Part shown: positions 1 through 5,385 of the stretch, in pieces
How positions within the stretch are numbered: position 1 is the first letter of the stretch
Layout of the letters: every line of letters starts with the position of its first letter
From: Actinomycetota bacterium
Lineage (GTDB): Bacteria > Actinomycetota > Actinomycetes > Streptosporangiales > Streptosporangiaceae
Direction: 5' to 3'
Assembly (NCBI GenBank): GCA_027314515.1
Contig: DAHVAR010000065.1
Coordinates: 1 to 56,014, forward strand
Length of the DNA: 56,014 nt
Notes under the pieces: generated by a model
Databases searched by the model: none
What the model was told of the DNA's origin: nothing
Seen by the model: only the letters and a program-made list of their open reading frames with translations
Program-made: the position numbers and the translations under genes

Positions 1-179
1 GCAGAAGAACGAATCTAACCGGCGTGCTCGTGGCAACAATGCGCAACCCGAAGGGCAAGACCCCCGCGCCAGACTAGCTATCGGGATCATGGGTCCCAGA
101 AGAGTCCCGGGCTCGGCGGGCAACCGCGGCACCAATTTTCACGCCTGCGCGACTTCCCCGCAGGGGAAAACCGGGACTA
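1..179 (-). repeat. Second copy of the IS110 non-coding left end (tandem element remnant)
   Basis: This stretch repeats 1647-1821 at roughly 90% identity, in the same orientation. The right-hand copy begins inside the 5' part of the IS110 transposase region and ends at the element's outer edge, so this copy should be the left end of another IS110 element whose transposase lies off the window to the left. Differences are not spread evenly: most fall in 51-64 and 86-107, between long identical blocks (11-50, 65-85, 108-152). It directly abuts the 3' end of the complete element, giving an end-to-end junction near 179. It could also be a solitary relic of a deleted copy. Confidence 0.75.
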
Positions 180-239
180 ACCGGAAAATGACCCCAGCTC
201 TCGCGCGGCAGCGAACACCAGCCGACGGCTGACCTGCAC

Positions 240-1589
240 TTATGCGGCGGGCGTGAGCGTGACGGTGTAGCCGAGGGCTTCGAGCTGACGGATGTGGCTG
301 CGGGTCTTGCGGTTCTTGTCGATCCTGGTGGTGTAATAGTCGGCGCCGAGGTCGTGGTAGCGGGCGCTGCGGTCGGAGAGCAGGTGCCAGGCTATGACGA
401 GGATGGAGCGGGCGACGGCGACGAGGGCCTTGAGCTTGCCGCGCCGTCTGGCCAGCCGCCGGTAGCGCTGGCCGAGGAAGGTGTCGGTGCGGGCGGCCGC
501 GGCGACGGCCGAGCCGAGGACGCCCTTGAGGTACGGGTCGCCCTTTCCTGTGGGGGCCGAGCGGCTGCGGCTGCCGGACTGCATGGTGACGGGGGTGAGC
601 CTGGCCCACGACACCAGGTGGCCGGGGGTGGGGAATGCGCTCATCCGCAGGCCGATCTCGGCGATGATCACCTGGGCGGCGTCGCGGCCTATGCCGGTGA
701 TCTCATCCAGCCGGTCGACCGCGGGCAGTACCGGGGAGCCGGGCACACGGCCGGCCCGTGGGCCGGTGGTCCCGTCGGGGTCCACGCCCTGGGCTTCGGG
801 GATGGCGGCGATCAGCTCCTCGATTCTGGCAGTGAGCGTGCCGATCTGGCCGGACAGTGCGTCGACCTGGTCCAGCAGCATGCGGGCCAGCTCGCCGTGG
901 TGAGCGTCGAACCGGCCGGTCAGCGCCTCGGTCAGCTTGTCGTGCTTGGCTTTCATCCGGCCGCGGGCCAGGCCGGCCAGGACCTGCGGGTCACGCTCGC
1001 CGGCGATCAGCGCCTCCACCATGTCGCGGACCGATCTGGTGTCGATGCTGGAGGCCACGGCCGAGACCTTGATCAGGGCGTCTTCGAGCAGCTTTTCCAG
1101 CCGGGAGTAGTGCCGGGTCCGCTCGCGGGTGAGGTCGATCCGCATCCGTGTGTAGTCCCGCAGCACCCGGATCTCGGCCGGCGGCACGAAGCTGGGCCGC
1201 AGCAGCCCCCGCTCGGTGCACTTGGCCTGCCAGACGCAGTCGAGCTTGTCGGTCTTGGGCCTGCCCGGCGCGGCCCGCACGTCCCGCGCCCGCACCAGCT
1301 GCACGTCCAGCCCGGCGGCCTCCAGCAGGTAGTACCAGCAACGCCAGTAGTCGCTCGTACTCTCAAGCGTGACCTTCTGGACTTGCTCGGCCGCCAGGCG
1401 GTCGGCCAGTTCCAGGACCGCGTTCGTGGTGGCATCCACCGGCCACACCAGGCTGCGCCGGCGCCCGGGCCGGGCCGGGTCGGGAACCCTCAGGCACACC
1501 ATGCCTGATGCCTTGGCCACGTCGACCGCCGCGACCCGCTCCAGGATCTGCTCGTGCTCCTCGTCCTTGATCTCCTGCGGCTCGATCAC
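240..1589 (-). CDS. IS110-family DEDD transposase/recombinase
   Basis: This protein of about 449 residues has the two-domain architecture of IS110 recombinases. The N-terminal RuvC-like DEDD domain shows D23 (in VDVAK), E76 (in TLEST), D114 and D117 (in KTDKLD). The C-terminal Tnp2 domain contains the serine-rich stretch QSGSRSRSAPTGKG near 337-350, where the nucleophilic serine of this family lies. The frame is open further upstream to a TTG at 1685, but the GTG at 1589 is preceded by a strong GAGGAGG ribosome-binding site, and the extra upstream residues fall inside the repeated non-coding end, so the shorter form is chosen. The family excises and inserts its element without target duplication, guided by a bridge RNA. 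The gene appears intact. Confidence 0.9.
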   Translation of the reverse strand: MIEPQEIKDEEHEQILERVAAVDVAKASGMVCLRVPDPARPGRRRSLVWPVDATTNAVLELADRLAAEQVQKVTLESTSDYWRCWYYLLEAAGLDVQLVRARDVRAAPGRPKTDKLDCVWQAKCTERGLLRPSFVPPAEIRVLRDYTRMRIDLTRERTRHYSRLEKLLEDALIKVSAVASSIDTRSVRDMVEALIAGERDPQVLAGLARGRMKAKHDKLTEALTGRFDAHHGELARMLLDQVDALSGQIGTLTARIEELIAAIPEAQGVDPDGTTGPRAGRVPGSPVLPAVDRLDEITGIGRDAAQVIIAEIGLRMSAFPTPGHLVSWARLTPVTMQSGSRSRSAPTGKGDPYLKGVLGSAVAAAARTDTFLGQRYRRLARRRGKLKALVAVARSILVIAWHLLSDRSARYHDLGADYYTTRIDKNRKTRSHIRQLEALGYTVTLTPAA

Positions 1590-1646
1590 CGCACCCTCCT
1601 CACGGGCATCACAACCGAATCTGAGGCGGATGCCCGCGGGGTCTGT

Positions 1647-1821
1647 GAAGAAGAACGAATCTAACCGGCGTGCTCGTGGCAACAATGCGCAACCCGTAGG
1701 TCAGACCCCGCGCCAGACTAGCTATCGGGCTCAGGTCCCAAGGCAGTACCGGGCTCGGCGGGCAACCGCGGCACCAATTTTCACGCCTGCGCGACGTCCC
1801 CGCAGGGAAAAACTGGGACTA
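1647..1821 (-). ncRNA. Candidate IS110 bridge RNA region
   Basis: This is the non-coding segment upstream of the transposase, read on the minus strand. Comparison with the copy at 1-179 shows conserved scaffold blocks separated by two variable windows: 1730-1749 (20 nt here, 22 nt in the other copy) and 1697-1708 (12 versus 14 nt). In sense orientation the long window comes first and the short one second. The short window is closed by GCGC/GCGC (1709-1712 region with 1687-1690 region). Two re-programmable loops in a fixed scaffold are what IS110 bridge RNAs look like. The ends of the RNA are not defined by sequence alone. Confidence 0.5.
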
Positions 1822-1904
1822 GCTAGCCCAGCCGGCTCAGCCCAGCCCAGCCGGCCCAGGTCTGACCGCTCCCAGCCATGATCGGTCCGCCGGGCATGGC
1901 GATG

Positions 1905-2789: not shown

Positions 2790-4436
2790 TCAAATCCAGC
2801 TGTGGAACCACATCCGGGACAGCCAGGCCGAATACGGGATGGCCTCGGCAGTCAGGATCGGGTAGATATAGGCGAGGTTGAGCAGGACGGCGAGCAGGTA
2901 AGCACCCGCCCCGACCGCGCCCACGGCACGCCTGCCGGGCGCTGCCCTGGCCGGCCCGATGATCAGGCCGAGGCACAAGGTGACCGCGATCACCACGAAC
3001 GGCTCGAAAGCGATCGCGTAGTAGAAGAACTCGGTCCGGTTGTCGTGCAGGTAGAACCAGATCCACGGCAGCCAGCCTGCCGCCACGCCGAGCAGGACCG
3101 CGCCGGCCCGCCAGTCGCGTCGCGGGAGGCGGCCGAAGACGAGATCGCCGACAAGTCCGGTGAGCCACCAGAACAGGCAGAATGCCAGCGCGAGCGTGCC
3201 CCCCCACCATAGCAGCGGAGTGCCGATGGCTAGCACCTCGGCGGCACTCCCGTGCGGCGGGTGACAGCCGGGGGCGAGGTTGGTTCCAGGAGCACACCAG
3301 TAGAACGAGATCGGCCGCTGCAGCACCAGCCAGCCGAGCGGGTTTGACCGGTACGACTGGAATGAGGTGAGCCCCAGCCCGAACTGGAGCATCCAGTGGT
3401 TGTACTGGTACCAGGAGTCGATGGTGGACCAGATCGGCGTGTGGTTGCCGTGCAGCGCGGCCCAGTTGCGGTCGTAGCCGTCGCTGGTGGCGAACCAGCC
3501 GCTCCAGGACACGGTGTAGACCAGCGCCGGTATCGCGGCGAACCAGGCGGGCAGCCATTTGAGGTCGCTGCGCAGGCCGCCGGCGAGCCAGTTCGGGTAG
3601 CCGGCGGCTCGGCGGGCGCCCATGTCCCAGGCGACCGCAAGCCCGGCGAAAGCGAACAGGAAGAGGATCCCGGTCCATTTGCTCGCGCAGGCAGCCCCGA
3701 GGCAGAGCCCGGCTGCGACCCGCAGCCACCGGATGCCCAGTTTCGGTCCGGCGAGGTCCTGCGGCCCGTCCGCGGCGGCCGCGTCCTGCAGCCGGGCTAT
3801 CGTCTGGTCCCGGTCGATCAGCAGCAGGCCGAACGCCGCGAGCACCCAGAACATCACGAAGATGTCCAGGATCGCGGTGCGGCTGAGCACCAGTTCCAGG
3901 CCGTCAAGCGCGACCAGCAGGCCGGCCACGCAGCCGAGCATGGTGGAGCGGGTCATCCGCCGCGCGATCCTGGCGGTCATCAGGATCGCCAGGGTGCCGG
4001 CCAGGGCGACCGAGAACCGCCAGCCGAACGGGTTCAGGCCGAACGCCCACTGGCCGACCGCCATCATCATCTTGCCCAGCGGCGGGTGAGCGACGATTTC
4101 GCCCTGCAACTGTCCGTGGACCTTCAGCAGGATGTTCGGGTCGCCGCGGGCCAGCAGGCTGTTCACGTAGCTGTAGTGCTGAAGCTCGACGCCGTGGCGC
4201 AGGATCGAGTAGGAGTCGGGCACATAGTAGGTCTCGTCGAAGACCACGGCGCCGGGCTGGCTCAGCCGGTAGAAGCGCAGGAAGCCACCGAAGACCATGA
4301 TGAGGACCGGTCCGGCCCAGCCCCAGAACGTGCTGCCAAGCACGAGCGCACGACCGCGACTACTGGCACGAGCCAGCAGCGAGCCTTCGTCGGCGTCGGT
4401 GGCACGCATCGTCTGGTAGACGTTCATCGCAGCCAT
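2790..4436 (-). CDS. pmt: Polyprenyl-phosphate-mannose-protein mannosyltransferase (GT39)
   Basis: Integral membrane glycosyltransferase that moves mannose from a polyprenyl-phosphate carrier to Ser/Thr of proteins during Sec export. About 548 residues with some ten hydrophobic segments. The catalytic acidic pair sits in the first external loop as D67-E68 (VFDETYYVPD), followed by a typical HPPLGKMMMAVGQ loop near the family's usual place. The start is uncertain: ATG 4436 and ATG 4427 are in frame, and neither has a clear ribosome-binding site, so a leaderless message is possible; frames further upstream would overlap the divergent rsmI. The divergent pmt-rsmI arrangement is the same as Rv1002c-Rv1003 in Mycobacterium tuberculosis. 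Length is in the family range. Confidence 0.9.
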   Translation of the reverse strand: MAAMNVYQTMRATDADEGSLLARASSRGRALVLGSTFWGWAGPVLIMVFGGFLRFYRLSQPGAVVFDETYYVPDSYSILRHGVELQHYSYVNSLLARGDPNILLKVHGQLQGEIVAHPPLGKMMMAVGQWAFGLNPFGWRFSVALAGTLAILMTARIARRMTRSTMLGCVAGLLVALDGLELVLSRTAILDIFVMFWVLAAFGLLLIDRDQTIARLQDAAAADGPQDLAGPKLGIRWLRVAAGLCLGAACASKWTGILFLFAFAGLAVAWDMGARRAAGYPNWLAGGLRSDLKWLPAWFAAIPALVYTVSWSGWFATSDGYDRNWAALHGNHTPIWSTIDSWYQYNHWMLQFGLGLTSFQSYRSNPLGWLVLQRPISFYWCAPGTNLAPGCHPPHGSAAEVLAIGTPLLWWGGTLALAFCLFWWLTGLVGDLVFGRLPRRDWRAGAVLLGVAAGWLPWIWFYLHDNRTEFFYYAIAFEPFVVIAVTLCLGLIIGPARAAPGRRAVGAVGAGAYLLAVLLNLAYIYPILTAEAIPYSAWLSRMWFHSWI

Positions 4437-4470
4437 CGTAAAGGCCGCAGCGGCTAGCCTGGGCGGCGAG

Positions 4471-5385
4471 ATGCAAGCAGCCAGCGGGATCGGCGGGGCA
4501 GCAGGCGGGCAGCGGCCGGGCGTGCTCACGGTAGCGGCCGCGCCGATCGGCCAACCCAGCGATGCCTCGCCCCGGCTCGTCGCGGCGCTCGGTGCCGCTG
4601 GCCTGATCGCCGCCGAGGACACCAGGCGGCTGCGCAGGCTGACAACGGCCCTGGGTGTCCGGCTGACCGGCCGGGTTGTCTCTTACTACGACGACGTAGA
4701 AGCGCGCCGGGTACCGGCCCTGCTTGCCGAGCTCATCGCCGGCCAGGATGTCCTGCTGATCACCGACGCCGGCCTGCCGGGGGTTAGCGATCCCGGTTAC
4801 CGCCTGATCACGGCCGCCGCGCGGACCGGGATCCGGGTGACGGTGCTGCCAGGCCCGTCAGCGGTCACCACCGCGCTGGTCGTCTCCGGCCTGCCGTCCG
4901 ACCGGTTCGCCTTCGAAGGCTTCCCGCCGCGCCGGGCCGGGGATCGCGGTCGCCGGTTCGCCGGGCTGGCCACCGAGTCCCGGACGCTGGTGTTCTTCGA
5001 ATCGCCCCGCCGGGTAGCCGCGACGCTGGCAGAGCTTGCGGCCGCGTTCGGCGCGGACCGCCCAGCCGCGGTGTGCCGGGAACTGACGAAGACCCATGAG
5101 GAAGTGCTCCGTGGCACGCTGGGCGAGCTTGCCGGGCAGCTCAGCGACGGCGTGCTCGGCGAGATCACGCTGGTCGTGGCCGGCGCCCCGGACCAAGCCG
5201 GGCCGGCCGCGGCGGCCGGCGCGATCACCGCCGATGTGATCACCGAGGTCGAGCAGCGGGTGCGCGCGGGGCTCAGCCGCAAGGACGCGATCGCGACCGT
5301 CGCCGCGGAACTCGGCCTGCGCAAACGCGAGCTCTACGCCGCGGTAGTCGCAGCCAGTGGTCAGCAGCACGATGATCACCAGTGA
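4471..5385 (+). CDS. rsmI: 16S rRNA 2'-O-ribose C1402 methyltransferase
   Basis: SAM-dependent methyltransferase of the tetrapyrrole-methylase fold, which methylates the ribose of C1402 in the ribosomal decoding centre. About 304 residues. Seen: the first strand LTVAAAPIGQPSDASPRL (19-36), AAEDTRRLRRL (48-57), LLITDAGLPGVSDPGY (95-110, the GxPxxSDPG cofactor loop), FEGFPPRR and the C-terminal SRKDAIATVAAELGLRKRELY helix region. ATG 4471 is used; a GTG near 4520 would remove an unconserved N-terminal stretch and is a fair alternative. Divergent from pmt with about 35 bases between starts. Confidence 0.9.
   Translation: MQAASGIGGAAGGQRPGVLTVAAAPIGQPSDASPRLVAALGAAGLIAAEDTRRLRRLTTALGVRLTGRVVSYYDDVEARRVPALLAELIAGQDVLLITDAGLPGVSDPGYRLITAAARTGIRVTVLPGPSAVTTALVVSGLPSDRFAFEGFPPRRAGDRGRRFAGLATESRTLVFFESPRRVAATLAELAAAFGADRPAAVCRELTKTHEEVLRGTLGELAGQLSDGVLGEITLVVAGAPDQAGPAAAAGAITADVITEVEQRVRAGLSRKDAIATVAAELGLRKRELYAAVVAASGQQHDDHQ

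Follow-up and report, generated by a model that had tools for sequence, protein, structure and literature searches.

Two IS110-type elements, A and B, form a tandem at the start of the window (the whole stretch of DNA that was analyzed, 56,014 nucleotides), each with a predicted upstream bridge RNA. The two predicted RNAs share a left target guide (LTG) and a left-donor guide (LDG) and have different right target guides (RTGs). In the explanation that we favor and regard as probable, the RNAs would be expressed and would act as guides, and B would have inserted first and A second. This reading draws on the anatomy of the two elements, the covariation between RNA and DNA across relatives, a left target common to both elements, and a locus recovered from both of its sides.

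An earlier note, made from the DNA alone, had reported two near-identical IS110 left ends at positions 1 to 179 (B) and 1647 to 1821 (A), abutting near position 179 and differing mainly in two short windows, and all of these observations were borne out. Both copies lie on the minus strand. Their alignment spans 179 columns, 18 of which differ: eight differences fall in A 1730 to 1748/B 86 to 106 (variable window 1), six in A 1697 to 1705/B 51 to 61 (variable window 2), three close to the outer end, and one at the inner edge. The concentration of 14 of the 18 differences within two windows of 22 and 13 columns was matched by none of 300 random placements, in a test that used 16 events, a threshold of 12, and window sizes picked post hoc. 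The left end of A is 92% identical to that of B and 91% identical to another copy on contig C173. The right end of A is ∼60 bases long (positions 177 to 239, downstream of the transposase), and its terminal segment (177 to 190) passes directly into AG and the left end of B. The features are collected in Table 1.

Table 1. Positions of the observed and predicted features of the tandem in the window
Feature	Positions	Strand	Basis or remark
Left target flank of A plus core, GGGCTAGCT + AG	1819..1829	-	GCTAGCT+AG also at the C173 copy of B
Left end of A, coding for the predicted bridge RNA	1647..1821	-	Family alignments
Predicted RTG of A, ACTGCCT (predicts AG+GCAGT)	1741..1747	-	Position from family tests
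Predicted hairpin between the target guides of A, GGG..CCC	1727..1739	-	Pairing over 40 RNAs
Predicted LTG of A, TAGCTAG (1718 to 1724), plus TC matching the first left-end bases	1716..1724	-	Same in B
Second variable window of A, apparent hairpin GACC..GGTT, not a guide	1691..1702	-	Sequence reading; no top-ranked match
Predicted LDG of A, CCGGTTAG, letters as in the right end of A	1661..1668	-	Family permutation test
Transposase of A, IS110 family, DEDD, ∼450 aa	240..1595	-	PF01548 and PF02371; NF033542
Right end of A, CATTTTCCGGTT + AG	177..190	-	Adjoins the left end of B
Left end of B, running on past the contig end	1..179	-	99% identical to C173:1-179
Predicted RTG of B, ACTCTTCT (predicts AG+AAGAGT)	98..105	-	Position from family tests
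Predicted hairpin between the target guides of B, GGGA..TCCC	83..97	-	
Predicted LTG of B, TAGCTAG (74 to 80), plus TC	72..80	-	Identical to A
Second variable window of B, apparent hairpin GCCC-TTC-GGGT	46..56	-	Sequence reading
Predicted LDG of B, CCGGTTAG	15..22	-	Identical to A

The IS110 identity assigned in the earlier note was confirmed by the PF01548 and PF02371 domains, the DEDD residues, and the C-terminal serine, all of which are present in the transposase of A, and by a match to NF033542 (“IS110 family RNA-guided transposase”). Residues D25, E78, D116, D119, and S340 do not vary in an alignment of A with nine relatives (10 sequences), and a profile of these sequences retrieves the IS621 and ISCro4 chains. 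As is typical of the IS110 group, a long noncoding end bearing the guides (1596 to 1820) lies upstream of the transposase, and the guides are therefore not downstream of it as in the IS1111 group; the RTG, however, sits 5′ of the LTG in the family tests, which departs from the IS110 group. The two target guides covary with both flanks, as expected of a bridge RNA or seekRNA.

Position 1 of the window is a contig end (G000:C186:1), and the middle of B, transposase included, is absent from the assembly. The earlier note had proposed extending the sequence leftward in search of a second transposase, and a second element could indeed be placed at the locus, indirectly, by means of contig C103 and of G006, a genome of the same genus. 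The start of C103 is occupied by a transposase 3′ end (84% identity at the amino acid level) and a right end of the same kind as that of A; 201 of 235 bases are alike between this 3′ end and that of A. In G006, the left flank of A on C186 and the right flank on C103 abut (L116:2647/2648), so that C186 and C103 represent opposite sides of a single locus, which runs left flank, A, B, right flank. Beside the tandem, ∼72 bases on the left (window positions 1822 to 1893) and ∼52 bases on the right (C103:236-287) are missing at the G006 locus, and the 72-base stretch carries GGCTGGGCTGGG-like repeats. Farther along the window, two minus-strand open reading frames appear, from their translations, to encode a sigma-70-family factor (2021 to 2671) and a mannosyltransferase-like membrane protein (2790 to 4622).

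The first 141 bases of C186 and C173 are exactly equal, after which the contigs diverge: C173 starts with the left end of B and continues, after the 141 equal bases and one change, into another flank. Because this exact sharing looks like an assembly-graph overlap at a repeat (presumably one produced by MEGAHIT at k=141), B probably occurs in at least two places in the genome. A search of the genome for the right side of the C173 copy found none, returning C173 itself and partial matches of 69 to 80% elsewhere. A right-end pattern gave eight matches in this genome and two in the control; those on C186, C103, and C120 are known elements, inspection of those on C124 and C207 revealed no such element, and the remaining three are on C255, C257, and C270. 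The same genome holds further IS110-type transposases or fragments at 41 to 59% identity (on C120, C170, C263, C195, and C73).

Relatives of the element were collected from genomes of the same family (33 of 297 genomes), order (18 of 345), and class (5 of 394), sets that overlap and in which the genome of the window itself is counted; a further set (3 of 35 genomes) was already contained in the class set. Other relatives came from 18 loci on GTDB contigs and from 11 of 28 plasmid records, and phage records gave one match, covering 22% of the query at 70.5%. In total, 46 loci were taken forward, 40 of them with a readable guide block; the LTG was unreadable in the other six (L041, L079, L082, L093, L094, and L069). 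Three of the GTDB-contig loci are in the panel (L019, L021, and L022), L020 duplicates L051, and six distant loci were examined on their own; the loci left out of the 46 include L059 to L065 and L072 as well as the GTDB-contig loci L025, L027, L030, and L032 to L036. Three pairs of rows in the panel are near copies (L086/L087, L090/L092, and L066/L070). Element boundaries were required to fall at AG. The LTG count (n = 38) omits L057, which has no boundary, and L049, whose flank is cut, from the 40; L084, which has no AG-ending right end, was omitted from both the LDG test and the RTG test. For the latter, 32 of 36 loci were used, L053, L075, L076, and L089 having no anchor, and in the scan along the RNA (n = 34) these four were restored with hand-set anchors and L087 was dropped.

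Several loci of the collection show features of their own. At L046 (1638 to 1714), the element occupies the 3′ end of a tRNA-Ala gene, which ARAGORN still scores as intact; the left end of the element (AGCTCCACC) supplies the 3′ end of the tRNA, and the right flank repeats the tRNA 3′ end up to the contig end. The elements at L066 and L070 are inserted at ACCCGCTTT+AG+GAGAGCGG, letters resembling a tRNA anticodon arm, that of tRNA-Arg (CCT); ARAGORN found no intact tRNA at these targets. In L090, the last ∼44 bases of the right end are repeated ∼90 to 147 bases past the end of the transposase, again ending in TTTTCGGATTAG, perhaps as the trace of a lost tandem copy. The left target is doubled directly before the element in L068 (GCTTTTCAG twice) and L073 (TACACCTTGGCGCAATTAG twice).

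Under the favored explanation, the predicted bridge RNA probably has the order 5′ stem-loop, RTG, hairpin, LTG, hairpin(s), LDG. The LTG repeats the letters of the left flank and core AG and would pair with the bottom strand, the RTG is complementary to core AG and the right flank (top strand), and the LDG repeats the letters of the element’s right end. The place of the LTG was first chosen by eye on 17 sequences. It matches the element’s own left flank at five of five positions in 29 of 38 elements (A included), at four in eight, and at three in one, whereas a full match to the guides of other elements occurs in only 4 of 1,378 pairings. The sum of matches, 180, compares with at most 121 in 20,000 permutations; the left boundary was taken as the best AG-anchored match, and the permutations were maximized likewise. 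Column by column, from positions −5 to −1, the matches number 34, 37, 37, 39, and 38 of 39. The LDG block follows GAGCACG and equals the right end before AG, with six of the seven scored positions matching in 30 of 39 elements (A included), five in eight, and three in one (sum of 223 versus at most 186 in 20,000 permutations, n = 39). The RTG corresponds to the bases just before the first hairpin. At least three of four Watson-Crick pairs form in 19 of 32 elements versus 217 of 992 mismatched pairings, leaving 13 of the 32 relatives with fewer than three, and the sum is 88 versus at most 77 in 20,000 permutations (n = 32), the best of three registers being allowed for observed and permuted data. 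Taken singly, two of the registers carry the signal and the third none; a fourth, unused, carries hardly any.

The same places emerged when the RNA was scanned along its length, with the four best places reported per feature and anchor. The left flank (z = 16.5), the right end (z = 10.7), and, less strongly but still clearly, the right flank (z = 4.5 and 3.1 at the RTG; next best, 2.8) each gave the top value for the respective feature, and the left-end bases reached 6.0 directly after AG. In 33 of 38 elements, the pair of RNA bases that follows AG is the same as bases 3 and 4 of the element itself (TC/TC in 20, CC/CC in 9, TG/TG in 2, CT/CT in 1, and TT/TT in 1, with 5 misses). No place in the scan rose above noise for a right-donor guide. 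Weaker right-end signals elsewhere (z ≤ 5.0, including a complement at the first hairpin with z = 4.2 in the scan) have no place in the model and probably reflect shared ancestry, which could also inflate the LDG value. Rfam returned two hits only, with E values of 2.2 and 3.3 and far under the gathering scores, and has no model for this RNA. Six distant relatives (five from Bacillota and one from Chloroflexi, 28 to 39% identity), read without a permutation test and with three of the six closely alike, all share 8 to 10 letters between the right end and the 3′ block of the RNA. A repeat of 9 to 10 letters between left flank and LTG is present in L024, L026, L028, and L031 and absent in L023; the L029 locus begins inside the left end.

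Covariation across the family also agrees with the fixed, bridge RNA-like scaffold with variable guides that the earlier note had envisaged. Both target guides are enclosed by a stem (columns 62 to 74 with 115 to 124, 94.0% of cells paired); at one of its pairs, 28 sequences divide into 19 with C-G, 8 with U-A, and 1 with U-G. The whole predicted structure, that is, the closing stem and a second helix, is paired in 96.1% of cells versus 30.0 to 49.6% for slid versions, the structure having been predicted from the same alignment that was used to test it. Four pairs changed on both sides, and none of 500 shuffles scored as high on pairing or on double changes; for further pair types, 64 of 500 shuffles came up to the observed count. 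The hairpin between the target guides forms 131 of 160 pairs over 40 RNAs versus at most 123 in 5,000 permutations, a comparison biased in its favor because the left arm was picked for best pairing. The target loop is thus modeled as stem, right guide, hairpin, left guide, and stem, and the LDG comes after the second helix, which is almost invariant, at the 3′ end of the RNA. Single-sequence folds disagreed among themselves and were left unused.

The left junction of A is crossed by two overlapping terminator-like sites (1816 to 1833, minus strand; stem, GGCTGGGCTAGCTAGTC; tail, CCAGTTTTTC), versus a shuffle mean of 0.4, which may insulate the element from outside transcription. The suggestion that the junction between the copies re-forms a promoter for the RNA found no support: a search scoring only the sigma-70-like consensus yielded no site in positions 1 to 2100 (shuffle mean, 0.0).

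Because the LTG and LDG of A and B are identical and the RTGs are different, the pair appears half reprogrammed; of the mapped guides, as read from the two copies, the RTG alone is rewritten, and the left half of the specificity is shared. Both of the shared guides lie in conserved blocks between or beside the variable windows, and both copies with a known left flank (A, and B on C173) follow GCTAGCT+AG. At the C173 site, G006 has GCTAG+GAGACAAC, which suggests AG+GAGACAAC as the right flank, and also differs by a CTAG unit. By reading, this flank would form six contiguous pairs with the RTG of B, including the core and one G·U, and three with that of A. The right flank of the tandem, AG+GGCTGCC, would form three contiguous pairs with the RTG of A and four, two of them G·U, with that of B, and this poor fit to either RTG is the weakest point of the reading. 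Sites of the CTAGCTAG type in the genome, of which 21 were listed, offered no lead.

The earlier note had interpreted the two variable windows as the target loop and the donor loop of one scaffold with two specificities. The differences do cluster in two windows, and comparison with flanks and ends across the family places the RTG in window 1. The LTG and LDG, however, do not differ between A and B and are located outside both windows, and window 2, which has no top-ranked match to any flank or end, can be read as a hairpin in A as well as in B. The family scan thus largely refutes the assignment of the windows to the two loops, which we consider very improbable. Nor did the proposed pairing of TGGGAC, shared by both copies, with GTCCCA at the left end hold up: TGGGAC is the 5′ arm of the hairpin between the target guides (GGGA..TCCC in B and GGG..CCC in A), and as a donor guide it was rejected, the match of left-end bases 5 to 9 to this arm (z = 3.4, one of ∼1,310 placements over five features) being taken as chance. 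The windows might instead represent ordinary drift in hairpin loops, with the guide matches due to shared ancestry, given that hairpins make up window 2 and part of window 1 and that right-end and left-end letters are inherited along with the RNA. An element does not inherit its target flanks, however, and these nonetheless match the RNA at levels far above permutation, which makes this account hardly credible.

The tandem itself is best explained, in our view, by guided insertion, in which B would have been resident first and A would then have inserted at B’s left junction. The junction of left flank and B, TAGCTAG+TC, matches the shared LTG over nine bases, whereas the empty site matches it over seven, and this order is preferred because the occupied left junction keeps the left target and adds the TC read past the core. 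Had A come first, B would have needed the right end of A, CCGGTT+AG, as a left target, a poor match. An LTG that reads two bases into the element’s own left end may therefore explain tandem insertion, an idea that rests on one case, as no other tandem was found among the 46 loci scanned (43 with a recognizable right end) and both left-end signatures follow a right end in the window only; several contigs stop soon past the element. Homologous recombination between an excised circle of B (or A) and a resident relative could also have produced the tandem, as the left ends are ∼90% alike, the 3′ ends agree to the extent given above, and an exchange inside the transposase gene gives the same exact junction of right end and left end. 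None of the evidence against it is decisive, the arrangement of A then B with an intact GCTAGCT+AG being also predicted by guided insertion at the left junction; we judge recombination unlikely but deserving of serious consideration. An assembly artifact or chimeric contig end would fit the location of B at a contig end in a draft genome of 280 contigs and the identity of positions 1 to 141 to C173, but the A/B junction (179) is internal to the contig, 38 bases beyond the 141-base overlap, and C103, syntenic with G006, independently supplies another right end for this locus. We therefore consider such an artifact very improbable.

Comparison with known systems, made with the accessible parts of the cited papers, places the predicted bridge RNAs of A and B in a familiar setting with an altered guide order. 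As in IS621, the RNA lies upstream of a DEDD/Ser recombinase (PMC11208160, PMC11208158), there are two target guides with the core in each pairing plus a left-donor guide, a stem-loop separates the paired guides, and core-adjacent bases read partner DNA (handshake guides). IS621 has the order LTG, stem-loop, RTG, followed by LDG, stem-loop, right-donor guide (PMC11208158), whereas the order here is RTG, hairpin, LTG, with the LDG at the 3′ end; the core is AG rather than CT, the recombinase has ∼450 rather than 328 aa, and read-through past the core occurs on the LTG (bottom-strand side) and not beside the RTG. ISEc21, the sole IS110 element tested in PMC11187229, likewise has an upstream RNA with complements of both target strands. 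Its bottom-strand match comes first, and IS1111 elements have the opposite order, described there as reversed in IS110; in A and B, unlike in ISEc21 and like in IS1111, the top-strand complement precedes the bottom-strand match. That paper puts forward guide order as an IS110/IS1111 difference hinting at different target recognition, and it reports natural redirection between relatives (ISEc11/ISXne4 and ISEc21/ISMch6). It also describes an IS110 subgroup with transposases of 395 to 455 aa that includes IS110 itself, which A resembles in transposase size and upstream noncoding region; the accessible parts contain no guide map of this subgroup (PMC11187229). No discussion of guide order was found in the accessible parts of PMC11208160, although its Extended Data Fig. 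10c gives guide maps for six more elements, one of which may already show the right-then-left order. The parts seen of an actinobacterial study (PMC12500396) mention an IS110 seekRNA region without guide mapping. A literature search with thin coverage of subscription papers and preprints turned up no study with a guide map for this branch.

An RNA that lies upstream yet has the guide order of IS1111 would uncouple guide order from RNA position, suggesting that evolution can reshuffle these two features and the type of recombinase. More broadly, the long-recombinase, IS110-type branch could as a whole use a mirror-image upstream bridge RNA (RTG before LTG, LDG at the 3′ end) in which the left guide, as a bottom-strand counterpart of the handshake guides, reads through the core into the first bases of the element, so that occupied left junctions outmatch empty targets and successive elements sharing a left guide but differing in the right guide stack in tandem; we hold this generalization to be quite possible, if a little short of probable. 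A map of LTG, RTG, and LDG is now at hand for the long-recombinase branch, a possible new lineage of programmable recombinases, and A and B provide a natural example of the rewriting of one half of a target code. Tandem stacking follows as a testable prediction from the read-through of the left guide.
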